Source of the DNA: Escallonia rubra
Lineage: Eukaryota; Streptophyta; Magnoliopsida; Escalloniales; Escalloniaceae
Reading direction: 5' to 3'
Assembly: GCA_033065855.1 (NCBI GenBank)
Contig: JAVXUO010002053.1
Span: 1-64,000 of the forward strand
Length of the DNA stretch: 64,000 bases
Below the pieces are notes generated by a model. That model saw only the letters and a program-made list of their open reading frames with translations, was not told the DNA's origin and searched no databases. Position 1 is the first letter of the stretch. Every line of letters begins with the position of its first letter. Shown piece after piece: positions 9,614-63,806 of this stretch. The position numbers were made by a program, and so were the translations under genes.

Positions 9614-9622
9614 ATTATGGAA
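9614..9622. repeat. 9-bp target site duplication, left copy (Pack-MULE)
   Basis: ATTATGGAA directly left of the element. The right copy is ATTATGGAG at 10792-10800 (8 of 9 match). A 9-bp duplication is the signature of the Mutator superfamily. Confidence 0.8.
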
Positions 9623-10037
9623 GGGATAATACCATTTTACTCTCCTGAACTATCTTCGTTTTGTTATTTTGGTCCCTAAATTTTAAAATTCGTTAAATTA
9701 GTCCCTGTACTTTGTGCCGTTATCAATTTAGTCCCTCAGTTGGGATTTTTCGTCAAAAAAGACCACGTGACAGGCACGGGTCGTTTTTTTAGGGGTATTT
9801 CCAGAAATGGACTGAGTCCCACCCAATAATTATTCCCCCCCCCTTCTCTCTCTCTCTCTGCTTGTTTCTCTCCCTCTCCCTTTGAGTAACCCGGATCTCG
9901 AGAAAGTTGAGATCCTCAACTCGGAGGCGGCAACTGTGGAGGCTGTTGCTGCTGCTGCAGCTGAGTCGGCCGCTTCCGCTTCTTCTTCTCGTAGTTGACC
10001 CCCGGTGCTTTGGACTGCGAATCGCGAAGGTAAAGCC

Positions 10038-10202
10038 GCGCGCCCCGAACGGGTTCGACTCGGGCTTGCCTCCGTTCTCCTCGAAGGCGGCGTGGAGGCG
10101 GCCGATGAGGGCGTCGAGGCTACCCCAGACTTGGCGAAAGGGGCAGGGGCAGGGGGCGGGTGGGGAAGGGTGGCCGAAGAAAGGGCAGGGGTGGGCATGG
10201 AC
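10038..10202 (-). pseudogene. Captured ALOG (LSH/G1-type) domain fragment
   Basis: The minus-strand frame reads [15 protein letters not shown] then [22 protein letters not shown] and NPFGAR, the hallmark second half of the plant ALOG DNA-binding domain (LIGHT-DEPENDENT SHORT HYPOCOTYLS family), including the zinc-ribbon Cys/His cluster. About 55 residues are preserved without a stop. The domain's N-terminal helices and the VRLYLREVRD continuation are absent, and the frame runs into unrelated sequence after GAR. It is a transduplicated exon piece inside the Pack-MULE, not a working transcription factor. A minus-strand ATG at 10220 is present but comes from flanking sequence. Confidence 0.88.
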
Positions 10203-10382
10203 CACCGTCTCGTGGATCAAGCCGCGCGCCCTGAACGGTTGACGTAGAAGTGTCGACAGTTGGGGGTTTGGGTTGGTTGGTAGTGGTGATTGATTGAGGA
10301 GGGCTTGACAGGCTGATGACAGTGGTGACTACGATTAGTTGATGATGTCGTTAAAGGTTTTGGTCGACAGGGATGCGGCGCC

Positions 10383-10604
10383 ACGGGCCCGCTCCGGGTG
10401 GTGGCCGAGAAGATGGTGGGGATCGATCTAGGGACCACCAACTCGGCCGTGGGGGCCATGGAGGGCGGCAAGCCGATGATTATCACCAACGCCGAGGGGC
10501 AGCGTACGACGCCGTCCGTGGTGGCGTGGACCAAGAACGGGGACCGGCTGGTCGGGCAGATTGCCAAGCGGCAGGTGGTGGTCAACCCCGAGAATACCTT
10601 CTTC
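10383..10604 (+). pseudogene. Captured plastid-type Hsp70 N-terminal fragment
   Basis: The plus-strand frame reads [19 protein letters not shown], then [26 protein letters not shown] and [18 protein letters not shown]. This is the start of the Hsp70 nucleotide-binding domain with phosphate-loop motif [11 protein letters not shown]. The RVVxEK leader and the [13 protein letters not shown] wording fit the chloroplast stromal Hsp70 (cpHsc70) family better than the cytosolic one. About 74 residues are kept without a stop; the frame then runs directly into the right TIR. It is a captured 5' coding piece (transit-peptide junction plus first part of the ATPase domain), not a functional chaperone. 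Confidence 0.9.
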
Positions 10605-10939
10605 GCTTGCCGGAAATACCCCTCAAAAAATGACCCGTGCCTGTCACGTGGTCTTTTTTTACGGGAAATCCCAACGGATGGACTAAATTGATAATGGCAC
10701 AAAGTACATGGACTGATTTAACAAATTTTAAAGTTCAGGGACCAAAATAGCAAAACGGGGATAGTTCAGGGGAGTAAAATGATATTATCCCATTATGGAG
10801 TATCAAACATTGGGGACTCTTCACACGTTAGTATATATATATGTTAGCAAAGTTGTCATTATATGTGTTGTGGAGTCGACTGTTCCTTGATTATGTAGTT
10901 TTGGTTTTACTATCCGTCTTTACGAAAGAAAATGTACTA

Positions 10940-11404: not shown

Positions 11405-11548
11405 ATGAGCATGCAATCAATAGGACATCCACATTCTAATGTTAAGTGGTGGCACTGGCGGCGGTGGTGCGAGTGGGCAGCAAGCCAAGGATGGATGGGG
11501 TGGCTACTTCCAAATGCCACTTCACTATCCAAGGTACACCCGTGCTGA
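11405..11548 (+). promoter_or_regulatory. Overlapping upstream ORF
   Basis: Two ATGs (11405 and 11411) lie between the TATA box and the main start in a different frame. They open a 47-codon ORF that runs past the main ATG and stops at 11548. If transcription starts downstream of the TATA box, this uORF would lower translation of the main frame. The alternative is an unseen short intron joining the upstream ATG to the main frame. Confidence 0.4.
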
Positions 11549-11669
11549 GTACGAGACCATGCCGGAGTGGAAGCTCGATTGCTTGCTCACTCAGTTCGGC
11601 CTGGCGGTCACCGGAGATGTCAACCAGAAGAGGAGGTTCGCCATTGGAGCTTTCCTGTGGCACTACTAA
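11439..11669 (+). CDS. Small plant DUF7722-type protein
   Basis: Single-exon 76-residue protein of unknown function. After a glycine-rich start (MLSGGTGGGGASGQQ) it has GYFQMPLHYPRYTRAEYE, MPEWKLDCLLTQFGL and VTGDVNQKRRFAIGAFLW, the conserved core of a small angiosperm family annotated as DUF7722. Length is typical. There is no signal peptide or membrane segment; it is likely soluble. The start is the first ATG in this frame. A TATA box lies 95 bp upstream and an AATAAA 200 bp downstream, so the transcription unit looks complete. The Pack-MULE ends about 650 bp upstream. An out-of-frame ATG in the leader is the only oddity. Confidence 0.85.
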   Translation: MLSGGTGGGGASGQQAKDGWGGYFQMPLHYPRYTRAEYETMPEWKLDCLLTQFGLAVTGDVNQKRRFAIGAFLWHY

Positions 11670-14053: not shown

Positions 14054-14370
14054 TTTTTCTAGGGGAAAGTAGGGAATGACCCCCTCTACTATACACGTTG
14101 TGCGATTTGCCCCCCTCCACTTCAAACTTAAGCACTAAACCCCCCCACAGTTTGAGAAATTGGGCACCTTAGACGGAAACTGTTAAACTAAACAGCGCGT
14201 GGTCAACACATGCGCTGACTAAATTTTTTTTTTTAAATGACAATTTTGCCCCTTCTTCTCCTGGATCTTCAATTTCAGTTTCTTCCTCTTCACCTTTTAC
14301 CACCGCACCACCGGAACGGCGCCGGCGCCGGCGCAAAGTAGCCTTCAACTAACTACCACCGATTACCGCG

Positions 14371-14486
14371 CCGCCGCAACAGCCCCGGCAGACTCCCCGC
14401 CGCAACAGCCCCGGCAGACTCCCCGCCGCAACAGCCCGCAACATCCCCGGCAGACTCCCCGCCGCAACAGCCCCGGCAGATCGGCC
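14371..14486. repeat. 26-bp GC-rich tandem repeat
   Basis: About four copies of a CGCAACAGCCCCGGCAGACT-containing 26-bp unit inside the MULE, with one shortened copy. Confidence 0.8.
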
Positions 14487-14785
14487 ATCGATCGGCCATT
14501 CCTGTCGCAATCACCATTCCTGTCGCATGCCGTGGGCCATCGATCGGCCACCATTCCTGTCGCATGCCGTGGGCCATCGATCGGCCATCCAAAACCATCA
14601 GCCGCCGCCCAACCAAACCCAACCGCCACCAATCGCAATCACAACCACAACTACGGGGAAGGGGAAGGGGAAATGCAGAGAATGGGAAGGGGAAATGTAG
14701 AGAATGGGAAGGGGAAAAGAGTGAAGAACAGGAAGAAGAAGGGAAGGGGGGAAAAGAGTGAAGAACATGAAAAAGAATAAGAGAA

Positions 14786-14880
14786 ACCCTAATTTTCAAA
14801 TTAGGGTTTCAAAACCCTAATTTGAAAATTAGGGTTTCAAAACCCTAATTTGAAAATTAGGGTTTCGAAACCCCAATTTT
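14786..14880. repeat. Palindromic CCCTAATTT repeat array
   Basis: Alternating CCCTAATTTTCAAATTAGGG-type palindromes, about three units with a ~37-bp period, inside the MULE. Single strands could fold into serial hairpins. Confidence 0.75.
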
Positions 14881-15603
14881 TAAATCAAGGTTTCAAATCC
14901 TCTAATTTTAGGATTTCAAAAGCTTAATTTGCAAATTATTTGCTAATCCTAATGGCAATCACGGTTCCTTTTTTTTTTTTTTTGTAACTCTCGGGTGGTC
15001 GGAGAAAAAGACCAGTTGTTGTGCTCAGTGAATCACCAATTGTAGCGGGGTTGACCAGAGGAGGAGGGTCATGGGCAAAAATTGTAATTTAAATTTGAGG
15101 GGAGGAAATTGCACACCGTGTATAGTACAGGGGGTCATTAGCTAATAAAGAAATAAGGGTATTTTGGTCATTTCACGCTATTTTTAACGGATCCGTCTAA
15201 GGTGCCCAATTTCTCAAACTGTGGTAGGGTTTAGTGCTTAAGTTTGAAGTGAGGGGGGCAAATCGCACAACGTGTATAGTAGAGGGGGTCATTCCCTACT
15301 TTCCCCTTTTTCTACTTCAATTTTATGTCTTTTCCCTAACTGCAAAACCTGGGCAGGACAACGATCTCCCGGAGTTTGGTGATCTAGAGACATAATTGAT
15401 AGTTTGGTTGACGAATACACGGTTTGTGAGTCCCCAACTTACATCAAATCAGGAACAGAGGTACATACTCTACCCGTCTAATTTTTCACCCAAATTTGCT
15501 ACTCTTGTTTTTAACGGGTTCATTTCTTTTCCAGGATCCAGACCACATCCTTACAGGTGAAGGAAATGCTACAGGAACAGTGGATCCAAAGTTAGTAGTT
15601 TGA

Positions 15604-25870: not shown

Positions 25871-26602
25871 CATAATTAATCCATAATCCACAGAGACGGT
25901 TCAATTACTCGTTGTTTATAAACCCTGCATTACGAATATTCGTTGTTGTTTTGCGAAGTCCATTGGCAACGAGATGGTTCAACTCGTTGCCAACGAATTC
26001 TATTTAAAGTGAAATTGGTAACATATGCAACGATCTTTATGCAATTTTGATATTTCAGAAAGATTCTTGCGTATGTTACCAATTTCTGAACGCATGCATG
26101 CATAAAAACCCTTAGTTCCCGTTCAAAGGTACTCATTACAAAGTAATGCTTTGTAATGAACCTTTGGATGTCCAGTTTGGACAATTTGATAAAGCTATGT
26201 GTTTATAAAACAGTGTTTCGACTCATGCTATGTGTTCTATGTCGTGGATATTTGGTACACGTTCTCATGTGTTTCTCCGGGTGCATACAGATATGGTGTT
26301 CTAACATCCATCAAACCTTGCAAGGCAAGATTAGAAGAATGTTAGAATATCTAATCGATGTCGTGTACTTGGAGAAATACGGGGAGGTTCTACCGAATTT
26401 TCCACAGACATAGGACTAAGCATGAGTTCTTCACTGTTTTATAAACATGTGTTTTTTTTAATGGGATAGGACCACTACCTATTAGAGAACGGAGGGGATA
26501 TATATAGACATGTTGTCACATTCATGCATTCATATTTACATCGTCCATGCCTAATGATTGGTCATAATTGAAGGTGGTATATGGTACATTATCTCAGTCG
26601 TC
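25871..26602 (+). other. Leader region of the CACTA transposase gene
   Basis: About 700 bp upstream of the transposase ATG. It contains several short inverted repeats, such as GCAACGAG/CTCGTTGCC around 25970-25998 and CATTACAAAG/CTTTGTAATG around 26134-26159. No coding region recognised. Confidence 0.4.
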
Positions 26603-29600
26603 ATGTCGGTCGATCGAAGTTGGATGAAAAGGAAGAATGCTGATGATTTTGAGGATCGCATTGACAAATTTCTCGACTTCGCTTACGCGCATCCTGCACA
26701 TGTTGACTTTGATAAGATAAGGTGTCCGTGCAGTAGATGTGATTTGTTGCATTGGAGAAAAATATTTGAAGTAAAATGGCATCTTCTTCGGTACGGTTTT
26801 ATGGGTGGATACACAAGGTGGACGCAGCATGGGAAAATGATATTATTGTCGCCAAACTCGGCTAGTCAAACTGAAGTTAGGGAGGAGGCACGGTATGATT
26901 ACCAAGATATGATTATGGATGTTGGGCATGCTAATGTTGACTGGGGTAACGACGGCGGTGACGACAGTCCTCAACAGCCGAACGAGGGGGCTTATCAGTT
27001 TTATGAGTTGTTAAGAGCTGCGGAAGAGCGGTTATGGTATGGAGCTCCGAAACACACACGGCTGTCTGCGGTTAGTAGGTTATTACAGTTAAAATCAGAC
27101 CACGGGCTGAGTGAGAAAGGATTTAACGAGTTTATTACCTTAATCAAAGAAATTTTGCGCAAAGGTGAAAAGCTACCGCCGTCGTACTATGACGCGAAGA
27201 TGATGATGATGAAACTTGGGTTGAGCTATGAGCAGATAGATGCGTGCAATAACGATTATGTATTATTCTGGAAAGACAATAAGGAGTTGTCACAGTGTCC
27301 AGTATGTGATCATTCGAGGTACAAACCGGACAAAGGGAAGAAGAAAAATATTGCATTGAAGATATTGCGATATTTTTTTGTCACACCACGGCTTCAGAGA
27401 ATGCACTGCTCATCCAATAATGCTGAACATATGAGGGCTCACTGTGAGAGTCGTAGCAACGATGCCGATGTGCTGACACACCCAGCTGATGGAGAGGCGT
27501 GGAAGGAGTTTGACTGCAGGCATCCAGTCTTCGCTCAGGAAGTTATGAATGTTAGACTCGGTCTCGTAACCGATGGGTTCAACCCTTTCGGTCAGTCTAG
27601 CATGCCTTACTCCACATGGCATGTTATTATTCTCCCGTACAACCTTCCACCAGGCATGTGCATGAAGAAGCCGTACATGTTCTTGTCGTTGCTTATTCCG
27701 GGGCCGAAGAGTCCCGGCAAGGACATAGATGTGTATTTAAGGCCGTTGATTGATGAGTTAAAACAATTATGGAATCATGGAGTCGAAACATATGATGCAT
27801 CCCTTAAACAGAATTTTCAGATGAGGGCTGCTTTGATGTGGACTATACATGATTTCCCCGCATTGGGAATGACGTGTGGCTGGAGCACACATGGGAAGCT
27901 AGCATGCCCTGCTTGTATGGGCGTGAACCCCGGTCATACGTTAAAGCACGGCGGAAAGCCCTCGTGGTTCGGATGTCACCGTAAGCTTTTGCCACCGGGC
28001 CATCAGTTTCGTAGGCAGAAGGATAAATTTGACGGGACAATCGAGCGTGAGGTTGTCACACTGGACTACCCATCTGGTGAAGAAGTGCTCTCACACCTGG
28101 AGGCACTTGATACTGACATACCACACGGCAAGGGTGTGCCAGATCAGAAGATTTCAGGGTACGGGAAAGAGCACAACTGGAGAAAATTTTGTATTTTCTG
28201 GGAGTTAGCCTACTGGAGGACGCTCGTTATCCGAAACAACATGGATGTGATGCATATTGAGAAGAACGTTTTTGATAATGTGTTCAACACAGTGATGAAT
28301 GTCAAGGGCAAATCGAAAGATCACCTTAAAGCGAGAAGGGATCTACAACAGTTGGGTGTACGCCGTGAATTGCATCCTCGGACAGTCAGTGGGAGGACGA
28401 TACTTCCGAAAGCACCTTACTGTCTAGACAAGAAACAAGTGGAGAAGGTCTGTCAGTGGGTTAAGAATTTGAAGCTTCCGGATGGGTTTGCGTCCAACAT
28501 ATCTCGTTGTTGCAATGTATCGGAATGCAAGTTCCAAGGGATGAAGAGTCACGACTGCCACGTATTCATGGAGAGATTCATTCCTATTGCCTTTCGGGGA
28601 CTGTTGCCACGGGTTGTTTGCGAGACTTTGACTGAATTATCTCATTTCTTTCGAGATATATGTTCTTCTACGATCCGGGTGAGTAACATGGAAGTGCTTG
28701 AGAAGAACATTGTGGTGACGATTTGCAAGCTGGAGAAAATCTTCCCACCTTCGTTCTTTGATTCAATGGAGCATCTGCCTGTTCACTTGGCATATGAAGC
28801 TAAGATGGGTGGACCCGTGCAATATCGGTGGATGTATCCCTTCGAGAGGTAATCCTTAAATTGTTACAGTTGTTCGTTTACACTTAATGCGACACCTGTT
28901 ATCATTGATATTCCACCTAACTCGATTCGCTAAACTTCTAGGTTCATGTTCCATTTAAAGAAAAAAGTCCGTAATAAGGCTCGGGTTGAGGGCTCAATTG
29001 CGGAGGCTTACGTAATGGAAGAACTTGTAAACTTTTGTAGTCAATATTTCGGGCCTGATGTTGATACAAGGTTAAATCAACTAGGCCGAAATGAACCCGG
29101 ATCAAGCACAAATTTGGAAAGGGAAATTGTCAATATTCAAGCAGTCAGGTAGTACGTTCGGCCGAAACTATACTCGATGGCTAATGGATGAAGAGTACAG
29201 TGCTGCAACAATATATGCCCTTCTAAATTGCGATGAAGTTTCGGCATTCGTTGAGTAAGTTAAAGTCTTAATTCACTTACATTGTTGTACATAATTGAAA
29301 ATGTGTGATAAGCGAGTCAACTATATTGGTTTGCAGTGAGTTCGATGCGGAATCTTTAATCACTGATCCCGCTGGACTTGAATCTCATCGGAAATCACAA
29401 TTTGTACAGTGGTTCAAAAGGCGTGTAAGTCTTTAACGAAATTATATTATGTGTTATATACAGTTCTGTGGCCAATTAGTATACTGATTTATCCTTAATT
29501 TTTACCGTCATCTACAATAGGTTCAGTCAATGGATAGACCAGTGGCCTCCTGCTTGAAATTACTAGCTGAAGGCCCTAACAAACAAACATCCTGTTACGA

Positions 29601-30276
29601 AGGCTATATCATCAACGGGTTTAGGTTTAACGTAAAAGATGATGACCGAACAAAACAAACCCAAAACAGTGGAGTCTTGGTCAACGGCGACTGTTATGCC
29701 GAGAATTGCATGGACTTTTACGGAGAGCTAGATGAGATTGTTGAGCTAACATATCTGGGTTCCCAAAACCGCCTGGTAATGTTCAAGTGTACGTGGTTCG
29801 ATGTCACATGCAGTAGAGGAATCCGTGTTAGCTCTCAAGGGATTGTAGATGTCAATGTCAAGTCAAGACTTGCATCAGACGAGCCCTTTGTGTTTGCTAG
29901 TCAAGCTGTACAAGTCTTTTACGCGGAGGACGTCGCCAATCCCAAATCTCATTGGTATACAACTATCAAGTCCAAGAAATTGCCCGTGACATATGACAGT
30001 GAGCTAGACTCCTTTCAAGCCGACCAACCACGTGTCTTGTTCCCTGTTGAGGTCAACAACGAGGAGGACGATCTTCCTCTTCCAACAACACTTCTTGTAG
30101 GAGAAGAAGTCGTAGATGATGACGCGGAAGACGTGGAAAGTGTTGGAGATGATGTGACCGAGTCTACTGATGAAGAGGATGAATTAGAAGATGAAGAGGA
30201 CGACGAGTCCCACGAAGAAGAGGATGACGAGTCTAGCGATGAAGACGATGATGATTCCCAAACTGAAAATTATTGA
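26603..30276 (+). CDS. CACTA TNP2-like transposase gene
   Basis: Catalyses excision and integration of the CACTA element. Exons by splice-site inspection: 26603-28848, 28942 to ~29254, 29337-29424, 29521-30276. The N-terminal transposase-associated domain is visible as MSVDRSWMKRKNADDFEDRI followed by CPCSRCDLLHW and the WTQHG end. The central Transposase_21/tnp2 block has KEFDCRHPVFAQEVMNVRLG, LGLVTDGFNPFG, the LPP-G-C stretch and GWSTHGKLACPACM. Then DUF4218 has CHVFMERFIPIAFRGLLP and MEHLPVHLAYEAKMGGPVQY, and exon 5 has DUF4216-like TQNSGVLV followed by a strongly acidic tail (DEEDELEDEEDDE). One frame change near 29120, between EREIVNI and KQSGSTFGRN, is the only defect noticed; without it the gene would be ~1,150 residues, normal for the family. 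The start is the ATG at the conserved MSVDRSW. Confidence 0.88.
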
Positions 30277-49084: not shown

Positions 49085-52000
49085 GGAAAAATTAGGAAAA
49101 AGTGGGTTTTTGGGTAAAATTTTTGGGGATGATGGGTTTGTTTTGAAAACTTGTGAAAAAGTGGGGCAACTTTTAAAAACTTCTGAAAAAGGGGATGACT
49201 TGTGAAAAAATGGTTTTTCTTCTAATGATGACTTTTCATTTCCCATGCTATCCCTCCTCCTGTTTTGTCCCTTTCTTGATGGGAAGACGCGTTGGTGAAA
49301 ATGTCACCAAGAGAAAACAAAAGGCATGAAGAAGAAGAAGAAGAAGATGGGTAAAGGTTAACAAGTCTGTGCAGTGGGAGTGGTACACTGTGCTTGCACA
49401 GTTGTACCACGTAGCTATGGGGCATCGTGCAAATCTCATAAAATTCTGAAACTTTACAGGAATATTTTTAGGACAATTATAGAATTACTGTTAAAATTTC
49501 AGATTTTTCTGATATCGTTTAATGTTTTCAATATGTTTTGAAAGTTCAGTTACTCTAAAATTAATTTGGAGCTCTTAAAATTCTTAATAAATTCTGGAAA
49601 ATTTACTTTAATGATTTTATGATGTAAATAAGGTTCTGTTTAAGTTTCGTAATTTTTAGAGTTGATTTGATACTAATTCCATATCGCATTTGATTTAGAA
49701 AAATGGATGATTTTAAAATGGTTTCGTTACTTTTTAAATCCTAATTTCTGTTTCGCTATTTTTCTTATATATTTTGAAGCTATCATGAAAATTATGGGAC
49801 TCTGATTTGGGCTAGAAGCATTAATTGCTCTTTTTGGGTTTTTTTTTATTGTATTTAAGAAAATCGTTTTTAATTTGAAAATATTCAAAAATTCAGAAAA
49901 TTTATATTGTAACTTGTTATGCTATTTTAAGGTACAAAACCATTTTATAAGAATTTATTATCATTCTAGAGTGTCTTAATGCGTTACAGAGTGTGCAAGG
50001 TTATCGGTTAGCTAGGTTTAGCTGCTCGAGCAATCCGGTTCGTTTTCGTTTACTTTAAGAGTGTCAGAGTGAGCAATGATTAAGATTAAGCATTATATTA
50101 ATAGTTTGCGAGCAATCCGGATCATTTTCTCCTCGGCACCAACGTGTATATTTGGGTCGAAAAAATGCGGCCTAATTGAGAGGTGACAAAACGCGGCGCT
50201 TTTCATCACAAAATGGCTAAACCGCATCCGTTTCTTCAATCCCAACCCCCTTAGCGAGGTCCTCTTTTTTTAGGAGTCCCACCAAAGCAAAAGCAACACT
50301 TGTGCCCCCCGTAATTTTTACATAAAAAGACTGGGGCATTGGCAGAATCCGACATGCACTTTTGCATAAAATGACTTGTGTTTCTGCAGAAAGTGACTTG
50401 TGTTTCTGCAGAAAGTGACTTGTGTTTCTGCAGAAAGTGACTAGTTTCACCCAGACCGTGCTTCTACACCGTTCTTCTATGATTGATCGATAAACACACT
50501 CCGAAGCGGATCATTTTCTCCTCAGCACCTACATGTATATTTGAGCCGAAAAAATGCGGCCTAATTGATAGGTGACAAAACGCGGTGCTTTTCATTACAA
50601 AATAAGTTCATATATGATAAAAATTCTAACTTCTAAACATGCTTCATTTTGCTAACTGAAGTTCTAATGCTTAATTAATATGAGGTCAATTGATGGAAAA
50701 ATGACATTCATCAAAATACGCATATTGATTGGCACAAGAGTCCGAGATCATAGTATTTTTTGTCCTATATTAACCCATGCACCCTCACTCTCGATGCCCA
50801 ATTTTTAAGTGGCACATGTATGCTGATTCTCATCGATACATGACATTAATGACGTGATGAAAAGTCTCTAAGCCTATTGATAGTACAATGATTAAATCGA
50901 TGCACAACGAGAAATAAACACTGAGCATCGAATAGGATTTTCAATAAACGTGTAAGGCTCAAAACAGGGTTTTCAAGGCAAACAATGCGACTTTATGAAA
51001 ATAACATAATCCAAAAGAATAGCGATAACAAATCAAGAGAATGTACGAAATCAAATATGAAGAGTTTGGTTCGGATAAAAATCCCTTAATACGATCCAGG
51101 TTATGCGCTCGCTGTTATTCAACTTTGTTCAAACCTCGAATTAACCTAAATGGAAAAATTAATTATTATAATTCAGTCTAACCTCACAAACTATTAATAT
51201 AATGCTTAATCTTAATCATTGCTCACTCTGACACTCTTAAAGTAAACGAAAACGAACCGGATTGCTCGAGCAGCTAAACCTAACTAACTGATAACCTTGC
51301 ACACTCTGTAACGCATTAAGACACTCTAGAATGATAATAAATTCTTATAAAATGGTTTTGTACCTTAAAACAGCATAACAAGTTACAATATAAATTTTCT
51401 GAATTTTTGAATATTTTCAAATTAAAAACGATTTTCTTAAATACCATAAAAAAAAACCCAAAAAGAGCAATTAATGCTTCTAGCCCAAATCAGAGTCCCA
51501 TAATTTTCATGATAGCTTCAAAATATATAAGAAAAATAGTGAAACAGAAATTAGGATTTAAAAAGTAACGAAGCCATTTTAAAATCATCCATTTTTCTAA
51601 ATCAAATGCGATATGGAATTAGTATCAAATCAACTCTAAAAATTACGAAACTTAAACAGAAACTTATTTACATCATAAAATCATTAAATTAAATTTTCCA
51701 TAATTTATTAAGAATTGTAAGAGCTCCAAATTAATTTTAGAGTAACTGAACTTTCAAAAAATATTGAAAACATTAAACGATATCAGAAAAATCTGAAATT
51801 TTAACAGTAATTCTATAATTGTCCTAAAAATATTCCTGTAAAGTTTCAGAATTTTATGAGATTTGCACGATGCCCCATAGCTACGTGGTACAACTGTGCA
51901 AGCACAGTGTACCACTCCCACTGCACAGACTTGTTAACCTTTACCCATCTTCTTCTTCTTCTTCTTCTTCTTCTTCTTCATGCCTTTTGTTTTCTCTTGG

Positions 52001-52222
52001 TGACATTTTCACCAACGCATCTTCCCATCAAGAAAGGGACAAAACAGGGGGAGGGATAGTATGGGAAATGAAAAGTCATCATTAGAAGAAAAACCATTTT
52101 TTCACAAGTCATCCCCTTTTTCAGAAGTTTTTAAAAGTTGCCCCACTTTTTCACAAGTTTTCAAAACAAACCCACCATCCCCAAAAATTTTACCCAAAAA
52201 CCCACTTTTTCCTAATTTTCCC
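49085..52222. mobile_element. Long-TIR MULE, non-autonomous
   Basis: 3138 bp. Left arm about 49085-50112 and right arm about 51188-52222 are inverted copies of each other for about 1.03 kb with scattered differences. The ends read GGAAAAATTAGGAAAAAG (left) and GGGAAAATTAGGAAAAAG (right, complement). A perfect 9-bp duplication ATTTAGTTA flanks it, diagnostic of Mutator-like elements. The arms contain a GAA/TTC microsatellite. The ~1.08-kb centre has no transposase or other coding region. The leucine-rich frames inside both arms are mirror copies produced by the TTC repeat and are not genes. Confidence 0.92.
50118..50603. repeat. Direct repeat pair and 22-bp triplication in the MULE centre
   Basis: A ~97-bp segment beginning GGATCATTTTCTCCTC occurs at about 50118-50214 and again at about 50507-50603. 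Between them lies a 22-bp unit (AAAGTGACTTGTGTTTCTGC plus AG) tandemly repeated three times at about 50372-50440. Confidence 0.8.
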
Positions 52223-62792: not shown

Positions 62793-63806
62793 GGGATAAT
62801 TGCGTAAAATACCTCTGTGGTTTGGGGTCGTTGCAAAAAAGCCCCTGTTGTTACAAAAAGACACCGGAGATTGCAAAAGTGTTGCAACCGTCAAAAAAAT
62901 CGTTCAAAGTGACGGCGTGTGATGTTCACGCTCCTGAAGAGTGCGTTTGGTAAAGATTAACTTAACGAAATGACAAAAATGCCCTTTATTTCTTCTTCCT
63001 TCCCCAAATCCTAAACCAACCACCACTCATTTCTGCCACCGCCGCCGCCTCAGCACAGTCACCAGCATCGCAGTCGCTGGCATCGCAGCTGCCTGCTCTG
63101 CCCAATCGCCGCCGCCTCAGCCCCCTCAAGCCAAAACCCTAGCCGCCACCTTTATCAGGCCCCATCGACCACCACCACCCTTTTTTTTTGCCACCGCCCG
63201 TTCTGCCACCACCGTCCAGCCCCATGTACCTCCGAAGCCACTAGCCCCAACCACCCACAGAGACCCTTATGCCGCCATCGCTAGCCCCTTCATCAACCCA
63301 AGCCAAGTACACCGCCCCCACCGGTGCCTTCCACCCACCGCGAACTCCATGTCGCCATCGCCTTCATCACCCCCAACCTCTTGTACCGCGGCTAGCCTCG
63401 CCATCAACCCCTGCAATCACTGGCCCTAGATCTACAATTAGGGCCAACCCTAGATCTACAATTCGGGCCAACCCCAACCCCGCCAGGCGCTGCCACCACT
63501 TGCCATGTCCACCCTCCATGAACCTACGTCGCCGTCGGCCAGCCCCGCCATCAACCCCATCCACATGCGCCGGCGCCGCCACCACGAGACCCTTATGCCG
63601 CCGTCGCTAGCCCCTTCATCAACCCAAGCCAAGATCTACAAATTACAGTATATATAAAGGGCAATTTAGACATTTTCATCATTCTGTTACGGGAATCGTC
63701 GGTTGCAACACTTTTGCAATCTCCGGTGTCTTTTTGCAATTTTTGTAACAGTAAGGGCTTTTTTGTAACGACCCCAAACTACAGGGGTATTTTACGCAAT
63801 TATCCC
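62793..63806. mobile_element. Non-autonomous MULE with GC-rich interior
   Basis: 1014 bp, perfect 9-bp duplication CTAAAGGAT, and ~100-bp inverted repeats starting GGGATAATTGCGTAAAATAC. The interior (about 63010-63640) is C-rich with CCGCCGCC words, and a ~50-bp segment (about 63260-63307) recurs at 63587-63633. A further local duplication, ACCCTAGATCTACAATT, lies near 63424-63464. The proline/alanine/arginine-rich open frames here have no recognisable domain; captured host sequence is possible but unproven. Confidence 0.92.

Follow-up and report, generated by a model that had tools for sequence, protein, structure and literature searches.

A Mutator-like element carrying pieces of two host genes

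The window, a 64,000-nucleotide stretch of Escallonia rubra DNA (GenBank assembly GCA_033065855.1, contig JAVXUO010002053.1, positions 1 to 64,000), contains at positions 9623–10791 a Mutator-like element (MULE) of 1169 bp that carries fragments of two unrelated host genes, one encoding an ALOG-domain protein and the other an Hsp70, and that probably descends from a single joining of two related elements holding one gene each. Its MULE characteristics are terminal inverted repeats (TIRs) of 185 bp, which are identical at 165 of 185 positions in an ungapped alignment (Kimura two-parameter distance 0.118), and a 9-bp target-site duplication that agrees at 8/9 positions; at one fixed pair of positions, a random match of at least 8/9 is expected with a frequency of approximately 1.5e-4. 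The interior of the element has a guanine-cytosine (GC) content of 62%, whereas the flanking 1-kb stretches have 39% and 42%. A chance inverted repeat was ruled out by the 185-bp length, the flanking duplication and the recurrence of the repeat in 65 other complete elements. The element is organised as follows:

9614–9622, no strand: left target-site duplication, ATTATGGAA, matching the right copy at 8/9 positions
9623–9807, plus strand: left TIR, starting with GGGATAAT and matching the inverted right TIR at 165/185 positions
9808–9903, no strand: subterminal block U, also present in some ALOG-only elements; against the two parent genes it gives simple-sequence matches only
9904–10203, minus strand: piece of an ALOG gene from the 3' portion of its coding region, with a shifted frame and 86.3% identity to host gene L067
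10204–10365, no strand: linker of 162 bp; positions 10239–10380 match solely at already known family places
10366–10604, plus strand: Hsp70 exon 1 fragment with an open frame, 94.1% identical to host gene L054
10607–10791, minus strand: right TIR, pairing with the left TIR
10792–10800, no strand: right target-site duplication, ATTATGGAG, matching the left copy at 8/9 positions

The limits of the two gene pieces were defined by their match to the parent genes. Of four internal frames that were scanned against Pfam, one matched ALOG, one matched HSP70 and two had no match. The ALOG match (PF04852, E 1.8e-25, profile positions 58–122) lies in the minus-strand frame 9789–10328, and the piece resembled LSH3 among the PDB sequences (E 5.5e-31). 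The Hsp70 match (PF00012, E 2.2e-26) lies in the plus-strand frame 10329–10691 and covers profile positions 2–67, i.e. the start of the domain, the best PDB matches being DnaK and mitochondrial Hsp70. A bacterial DnaK was ruled out as the source, since the nearest sequence is a gene of the same assembly that has another exon and, ahead of its Hsp70 domain, an N-terminal extension. The Hsp70 piece is presumably of the plastid type, as the original prediction had labelled it, judging from plastid Hsp70 sequences and from the N-terminal extension that the parent gene carries. The element is non-autonomous, as a transposase is absent from the scanned frames of its 1169 bp.

These observations bear out the original prediction of a Pack-MULE with fragments of two unrelated host genes, flanked by matched TIRs of about 180 bp and a 9-bp duplication, while correcting it on the limits of the two pieces, given above, and in two further respects. 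The two pieces had been described as convergently placed; they are in fact divergent, with ALOG at the left on the minus strand, Hsp70 at the right on the plus strand, and their 5' sides facing each other. Both had also been described as still open, which holds for the Hsp70 frame, whereas the ALOG frame, when compared to the parent protein, is broken inside the domain after NPFGAR, the remainder of the domain being located in another frame (9916–10119, minus strand).

A large TIR family with variable cargo

The assembly searched comprises 566,129,122 bases in 3222 contigs. Approximately 40 candidates were scored in each search (of 119 for the ALOG piece, 68 for the Hsp70 piece, 41 for the linker, 902 candidate ends for the TIR and 169 for a third module described below); all family counts are lower bounds, class sizes do not represent genome frequencies, and the elements studied are mostly the best matches to the pieces in the window or to the ALOG model. 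The best 40 matches of the ALOG piece and the best 40 of the Hsp70 piece were each 91–100% identical to the query, and the Pfam ALOG model matched 122 stretches of the genome. Merging of the ALOG, Hsp70 and model searches yielded at least 112 distinct places, with ALOG at 104, Hsp70 at 40 and both at 32 of these. The window element is thus one copy of a large amplified family. This carries a warning for annotation: there are at least 104 distinct places with an ALOG match, yet only 8 of the 20 high-ranking ALOG loci that were fetched lack family TIRs.

A complete TIR pair surrounds the cargo at 66 of 81 non-duplicate loci (L006 and L007 were left out as second copies of L009 and L010), the other 15 comprising eight ALOG loci, three Hsp70 loci and four elements that are incomplete within the fetched stretch. 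The complete elements range in length from 941 to 1314 bp, and their target duplications match at 9/9 positions in 47 cases and at 8/9 in eight. As 51 of these 55 duplications are distinct, the copies mostly represent independent insertions. The duplicated sequences consist largely of A and T, their mean GC being 0.13 across the 55 elements. L008 and L010, positioned at the end of contig C1447 and near the start of contig C1448, share a target duplication and may represent an assembly overlap. The elements were sorted into classes according to their cargo and length; some boundaries and loci were set by hand, and a few copies are damaged:

Window-like (ALOG and short Hsp70): n=17
Shortened window-type: n=7
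Long chimera (approximately 131 bp more Hsp70): n=8
Hsp70-only: n=4
ALOG-only: n=17
Part of ALOG with other sequence: n=8
ALOG, part of Hsp70 and a third piece: n=5

Some of block U is present in all of seven further elements that were fetched by TIR similarity, and four of them contain the first half of the Hsp70 piece. For the third piece, a Pfam scan of L018 and L026 matched the ALOG part alone and gave no identity for the third module, while 33 of the best 40 places (of 169 candidates) at which this module was found are within 1.5 kb of known family places. MULE transposase domains are abundant in the genome, many of them in long open frames (150 scored of 3309 candidates), and at many places these frames are approximately 777–783 amino acids in length. 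At one locus, L092 (C85:85500-91500), no TIR like that of the window element is present, and short matches recur at a spacing of 78 bp near one end.

Putative parent genes

Eight ALOG loci (L064–L071) lack a family TIR. The nearest of these to the window piece is L067 on contig C1655, in which the ALOG frame is intact (PF04852, E 2.8e-65) and which shares 94.4% identity with the ALOG-only element L027 across 532 bp; of the other seven loci, six match the window piece at 72–75% over shorter stretches and one does not match. On the Hsp70 side, the first exon of L054 (contig C2556) is open and includes an N-terminal extension, and another Hsp70 exon lies downstream of it. The Hsp70-only element L049 is 91% identical to L054 over 798 bp and 80–82% identical to the gene copies L058 and L059, making the L054 lineage the likely Hsp70 donor. 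No match to the family TIR was found in the fetched 3-kb stretches of L054 and L067. Based on these sequence comparisons, L067 and L054 are considered the putative parents of the ALOG and Hsp70 pieces, respectively. As the original prediction had anticipated, the window pieces thus have candidate parents above 75% identity on separate contigs. The prediction had also raised the alternative of an ordinary ALOG-Hsp70 gene pair outside any TIRs; this was not seen and is ruled out, since the parents are on different contigs and all 37 of the fetched loci that hold both pieces are flanked by family TIRs on both sides.

The ALOG-only Pack-MULE L027 (contig C1826), which has a 9/9 target duplication, contains on its minus strand (1157–1813) an uninterrupted ALOG frame of 182 codons from ATG to stop, the ATG being located inside the frame of the parent. 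Pairwise comparison to L067 gave a ratio of non-synonymous to synonymous change (dN/dS) of 0.14. Of the private changes in L027, six are synonymous and two non-synonymous, the corresponding totals for four other copies combined being 16 and 24 (Fisher p 0.12); selection on this frame is therefore not established despite the low dN/dS.

Shared ends and breakpoints

Breakpoints were mapped with the whole L054 and L067 loci as queries, and queries cut at the breakpoints gave the same ends. Within one MULE-like TIR family, some copies contain L067 sequence and others contain the 5' end of L054. On the Hsp70 side, the match to L054 ends at position 1879 in all eight long chimeras and all four Hsp70-only elements, beyond which these 12 elements have similar letters that differ from those of L054. 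The same letters, TTCGCTTGCCGG, are located before the right TIR in the window element. In all 24 window-type and shortened elements the match ends at 1747 or 1748, the last 131 bp being lost. On the ALOG side, the match to L067 ends at position 1794 in 16 of 17 window-type elements, two of seven shortened elements, seven of eight long chimeras and three ALOG-only elements, while two more ALOG-only elements end at 1788 and 1789. Beyond this end the letters are common to these chimeras and ALOG-only elements and differ from those of L067. The chimeras thus share their ALOG-side end with five of the 17 ALOG-only elements, four of which also carry block U beside the left TIR. Taken together, the chimeras have the left end of ALOG-only elements and, in the case of the long chimeras, the right end of Hsp70-only elements.

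The inner breakpoints are nearly constant across the chimeras. The inner ALOG breakpoint is at L067 position 1473 in 41 of 45 chimeras and derivatives (the others being at 1465, 1466, 1466 and 1477), and the inner Hsp70 breakpoint is at L054 position 1510 in 35 of 37 (the others at 1511 and 1556), which argues for one joining event. The single-gene elements hold longer pieces of each gene, with ALOG starting from 1263, 1314 or 1357 and Hsp70 from 1109 (1322 in L057). A search with the upstream region present in Hsp70-only elements returned nine candidates, all of which were scored: three are at Hsp70 gene loci and six elsewhere, the latter including the four Hsp70-only elements studied and the partly fetched L063.

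In a tree of 63 ALOG sequences, the chimeras and their derivatives form one clade (ultrafast bootstrap 93) among the ALOG-only elements, the nodes by which they are nested having support of 61–80. Additionally, the two TIRs of a long chimera are on average 85.0% identical (n=8), as compared to 91.3% in Hsp70-only and 89.6% in ALOG-only elements (long chimeras against single-gene elements, n=21; one-sided Mann-Whitney p 0.0013). The right TIRs of the long chimeras are, by mean identity, nearer to those of Hsp70-only elements in all eight cases.

Origin of the chimera

The reading that we favour, and consider probable, is that two single-gene Pack-MULEs were joined once, that the middle of the compound was lost, that the hybrid was amplified, and that some descendants gained a third piece. 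One ALOG-carrying and one Hsp70-carrying element would have been joined, either because neighbouring insertions were mobilised via their two outer TIRs and an internal deletion followed, or because repair switched templates from one element to the other, and this event would have left the 162-bp linker. The chimera would then have lost approximately 131 bp of Hsp70 to give the window type and may have spread by transposition, the MULE transposase being supplied in trans, while sub-lineages would have gained the third piece or lost the Hsp70 piece. The copy in the window is most likely an inert, decayed passenger.

Several observations weigh against this proposal. The other 12 of the 17 ALOG-only elements end at L067 positions 1716 or 1729 and do not have the shared end. 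Resolution is poor in the Hsp70 tree (39 sequences), where the Hsp70-only elements do not take an ancestral position and one long chimera is located beside the parent. The left TIRs of the long chimeras are nearer to those of ALOG-only elements in just five of eight cases by mean identity, and in eight of eight by best match, which is biased towards the ALOG-only group because of its larger number of sequences; by the same measure their right TIRs are nearest to Hsp70-only elements in four of eight cases, with two ties and two opposite results. Furthermore, the TIRs of window-type elements are 90.2% alike, as compared to the 85.0% in their supposed long-chimera ancestors, and homogenisation or the replacement or exchange of an end must therefore be assumed. 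A close pair of family members does occur on contig C1889, in the same orientation, 44 bp apart and each with its own 9/9 duplication, but it consists of an ALOG-only element and a long chimera rather than an ALOG-only and an Hsp70-only element. A compound intermediate was not seen among the 66 complete elements, and a transposase gene with family TIRs was not found (one of the 150 scored places was inspected). No source for the linker was found either: 40 of its 41 genome candidates were scored, and all 40 are at known places of ALOG or Hsp70 matches.

As to the route by which two single-gene elements would have been joined, one possibility, from which we lean slightly away, is that no neighbours fused physically and that the joining took place in trans, through gap repair or a switch of template. 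For Pack-TIRs, the available part of PMC8277862 proposes a model of gap filling or fork-stalling template switching. A linker with no known source suits such a route, as does the resemblance (81%) of linker positions 10208–10238 to the nearby ALOG stretch 10022–10052, which is reminiscent of filler DNA. However, the present data cannot separate this route from fusion followed by deletion, and the same-orientation neighbours on C1889 show that a substrate for fusion can exist.

A different history, in which one element captured both genes in succession and the ALOG-only and Hsp70-only elements are its deletion derivatives, would explain the shared ends equally well, and internal deletions clearly happen in this family. 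It is nevertheless unlikely, given that no chimera seen contains as much of either gene as the single-gene elements do and that the chimeras nest inside the ALOG-only diversity, while both derivative classes would need deletions that spare the intact inner TIR of approximately 185 bp. Finally, the original prediction had suggested that antisense or chimeric transcripts from the element could act against both parents. Such an effect in trans, through antisense RNA or small interfering RNA against the ALOG and Hsp70 genes, is possible but hypothetical, and we consider it improbable: some rice pseudogenes are said to give rise to antisense small RNAs (PMC2708354, in the part available), and many copies with pieces at 86–94% identity could do so here, but in the divergent layout a read-through transcript would be antisense to just one parent.

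Other features of the window

Approximately 630 bp past the right end of the element, a small frame with a DUF7722 domain begins (11424–11669, E 6.4e-27). A second MULE-like element of 1014 bp is located at 62793–63806, with the ends GGGATAATTGCG...CGCAATTATCCC and CTAAAGGAT on both flanks; it has 1048 candidates in the genome (40 scored), including two full copies and one partial copy in a row on contig C480, and its frame of 151 amino acids gave no Pfam match. Inverted repeats of 57 bp (100% identical) and 80 bp (88%) surround approximately 1 kb at 14061–15307, with the ends AGGGGAAAGTAG...CTACTTTCCCCT, while very large inverted repeats (98% identical, arms of 785 and 263 nucleotides) enclose approximately 1 kb at 49085–52222. 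Frames at 26558–30276 contain Transposase_21 (tnp2), DUF4218 and DUF4216 domains and belong to what we take to be a CACTA-type element.

Relation to known systems and significance

Rice Pack-MULEs, as reportedly described by Jiang et al. in 2004, contain pieces that are sometimes derived from several loci. They resemble the present family in their long TIRs, their target duplication of about 9 bp, the lack of a transposase and the captured host-gene pieces, and differ from it in that a two-gene chimera is found here in dozens of copies, together with identified single-gene relatives and shared capture ends. Capture from several loci is established for Pack-MULEs (PMC9168764 and PMC13317346, as far as the available parts of these sources go) and, in the accessible portion of PMC8903248, also for other Pack-TYPE elements; the argument of the original prediction that two pieces in one element are themselves novel is therefore weak.

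The same portion of PMC8903248 describes fused Pack-TYPE elements for Mariner and PIF and mentions similar cases in CACTA and hAT. Os-Pack-Mariner cluster 217 (groups A, B, AB and BB) and Zm-Pack-PIF cluster 18 likewise combine two smaller relatives with similar TIRs, and the AB group of the former also has extra DNA of unknown origin between the joined parts. In the Os-Pack-Mariner case, however, only one partner carries a gene piece, whereas in the family described here, with its MULE-like TIRs and 9-bp duplication, both partners carry one. Animal Pack-TIRs, as presented in the available text of PMC8277862, are similar in that host sequence is placed between TIRs, becomes multicopy by transposition and is proposed to be captured by template switching (gap-filling or FoSTeST models); the present case differs in being a plant family in which two gene captures are joined. 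The barley Hvu_Abermu MULEs (PMC9168764, in the part available) share the GGG...CCC ends, long TIRs, mostly 9-bp A/T-rich duplications and high copy number, but Hvu_Abermu is 8,176 bp in length and apparently autonomous, while the present family measures approximately 0.9–1.3 kb with no transposase seen. Neither an ALOG-Hsp70 Pack-MULE nor a MULE case retaining both single-gene partners was found in the open-licence literature that was searched. The family is thus an unusually well-resolved and complete case of kinds that are already published, namely multi-gene Pack-MULEs and fused Pack-TYPE elements.

More generally, multi-gene Pack-MULEs may arise mainly from the joining of single-gene siblings rather than from repeated capture; in the present family the hybrid would have out-spread its Hsp70-only partner and kept trading internal modules (the third piece being present at at least 40 places), and L027 may be a mobile, functional transcription factor gene, but we regard these broader suggestions as doubtful. 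The family bears on the mechanistic question of how Pack-MULEs come to hold pieces of several genes. In this instance one genome retains the putative parents, both kinds of single-gene element, chimeras of the long and the short type and tripartite derivatives, their breakpoints being shared at the level of single bases, and the joining route thereby becomes testable for MULE-like elements through the comparison of related genomes.
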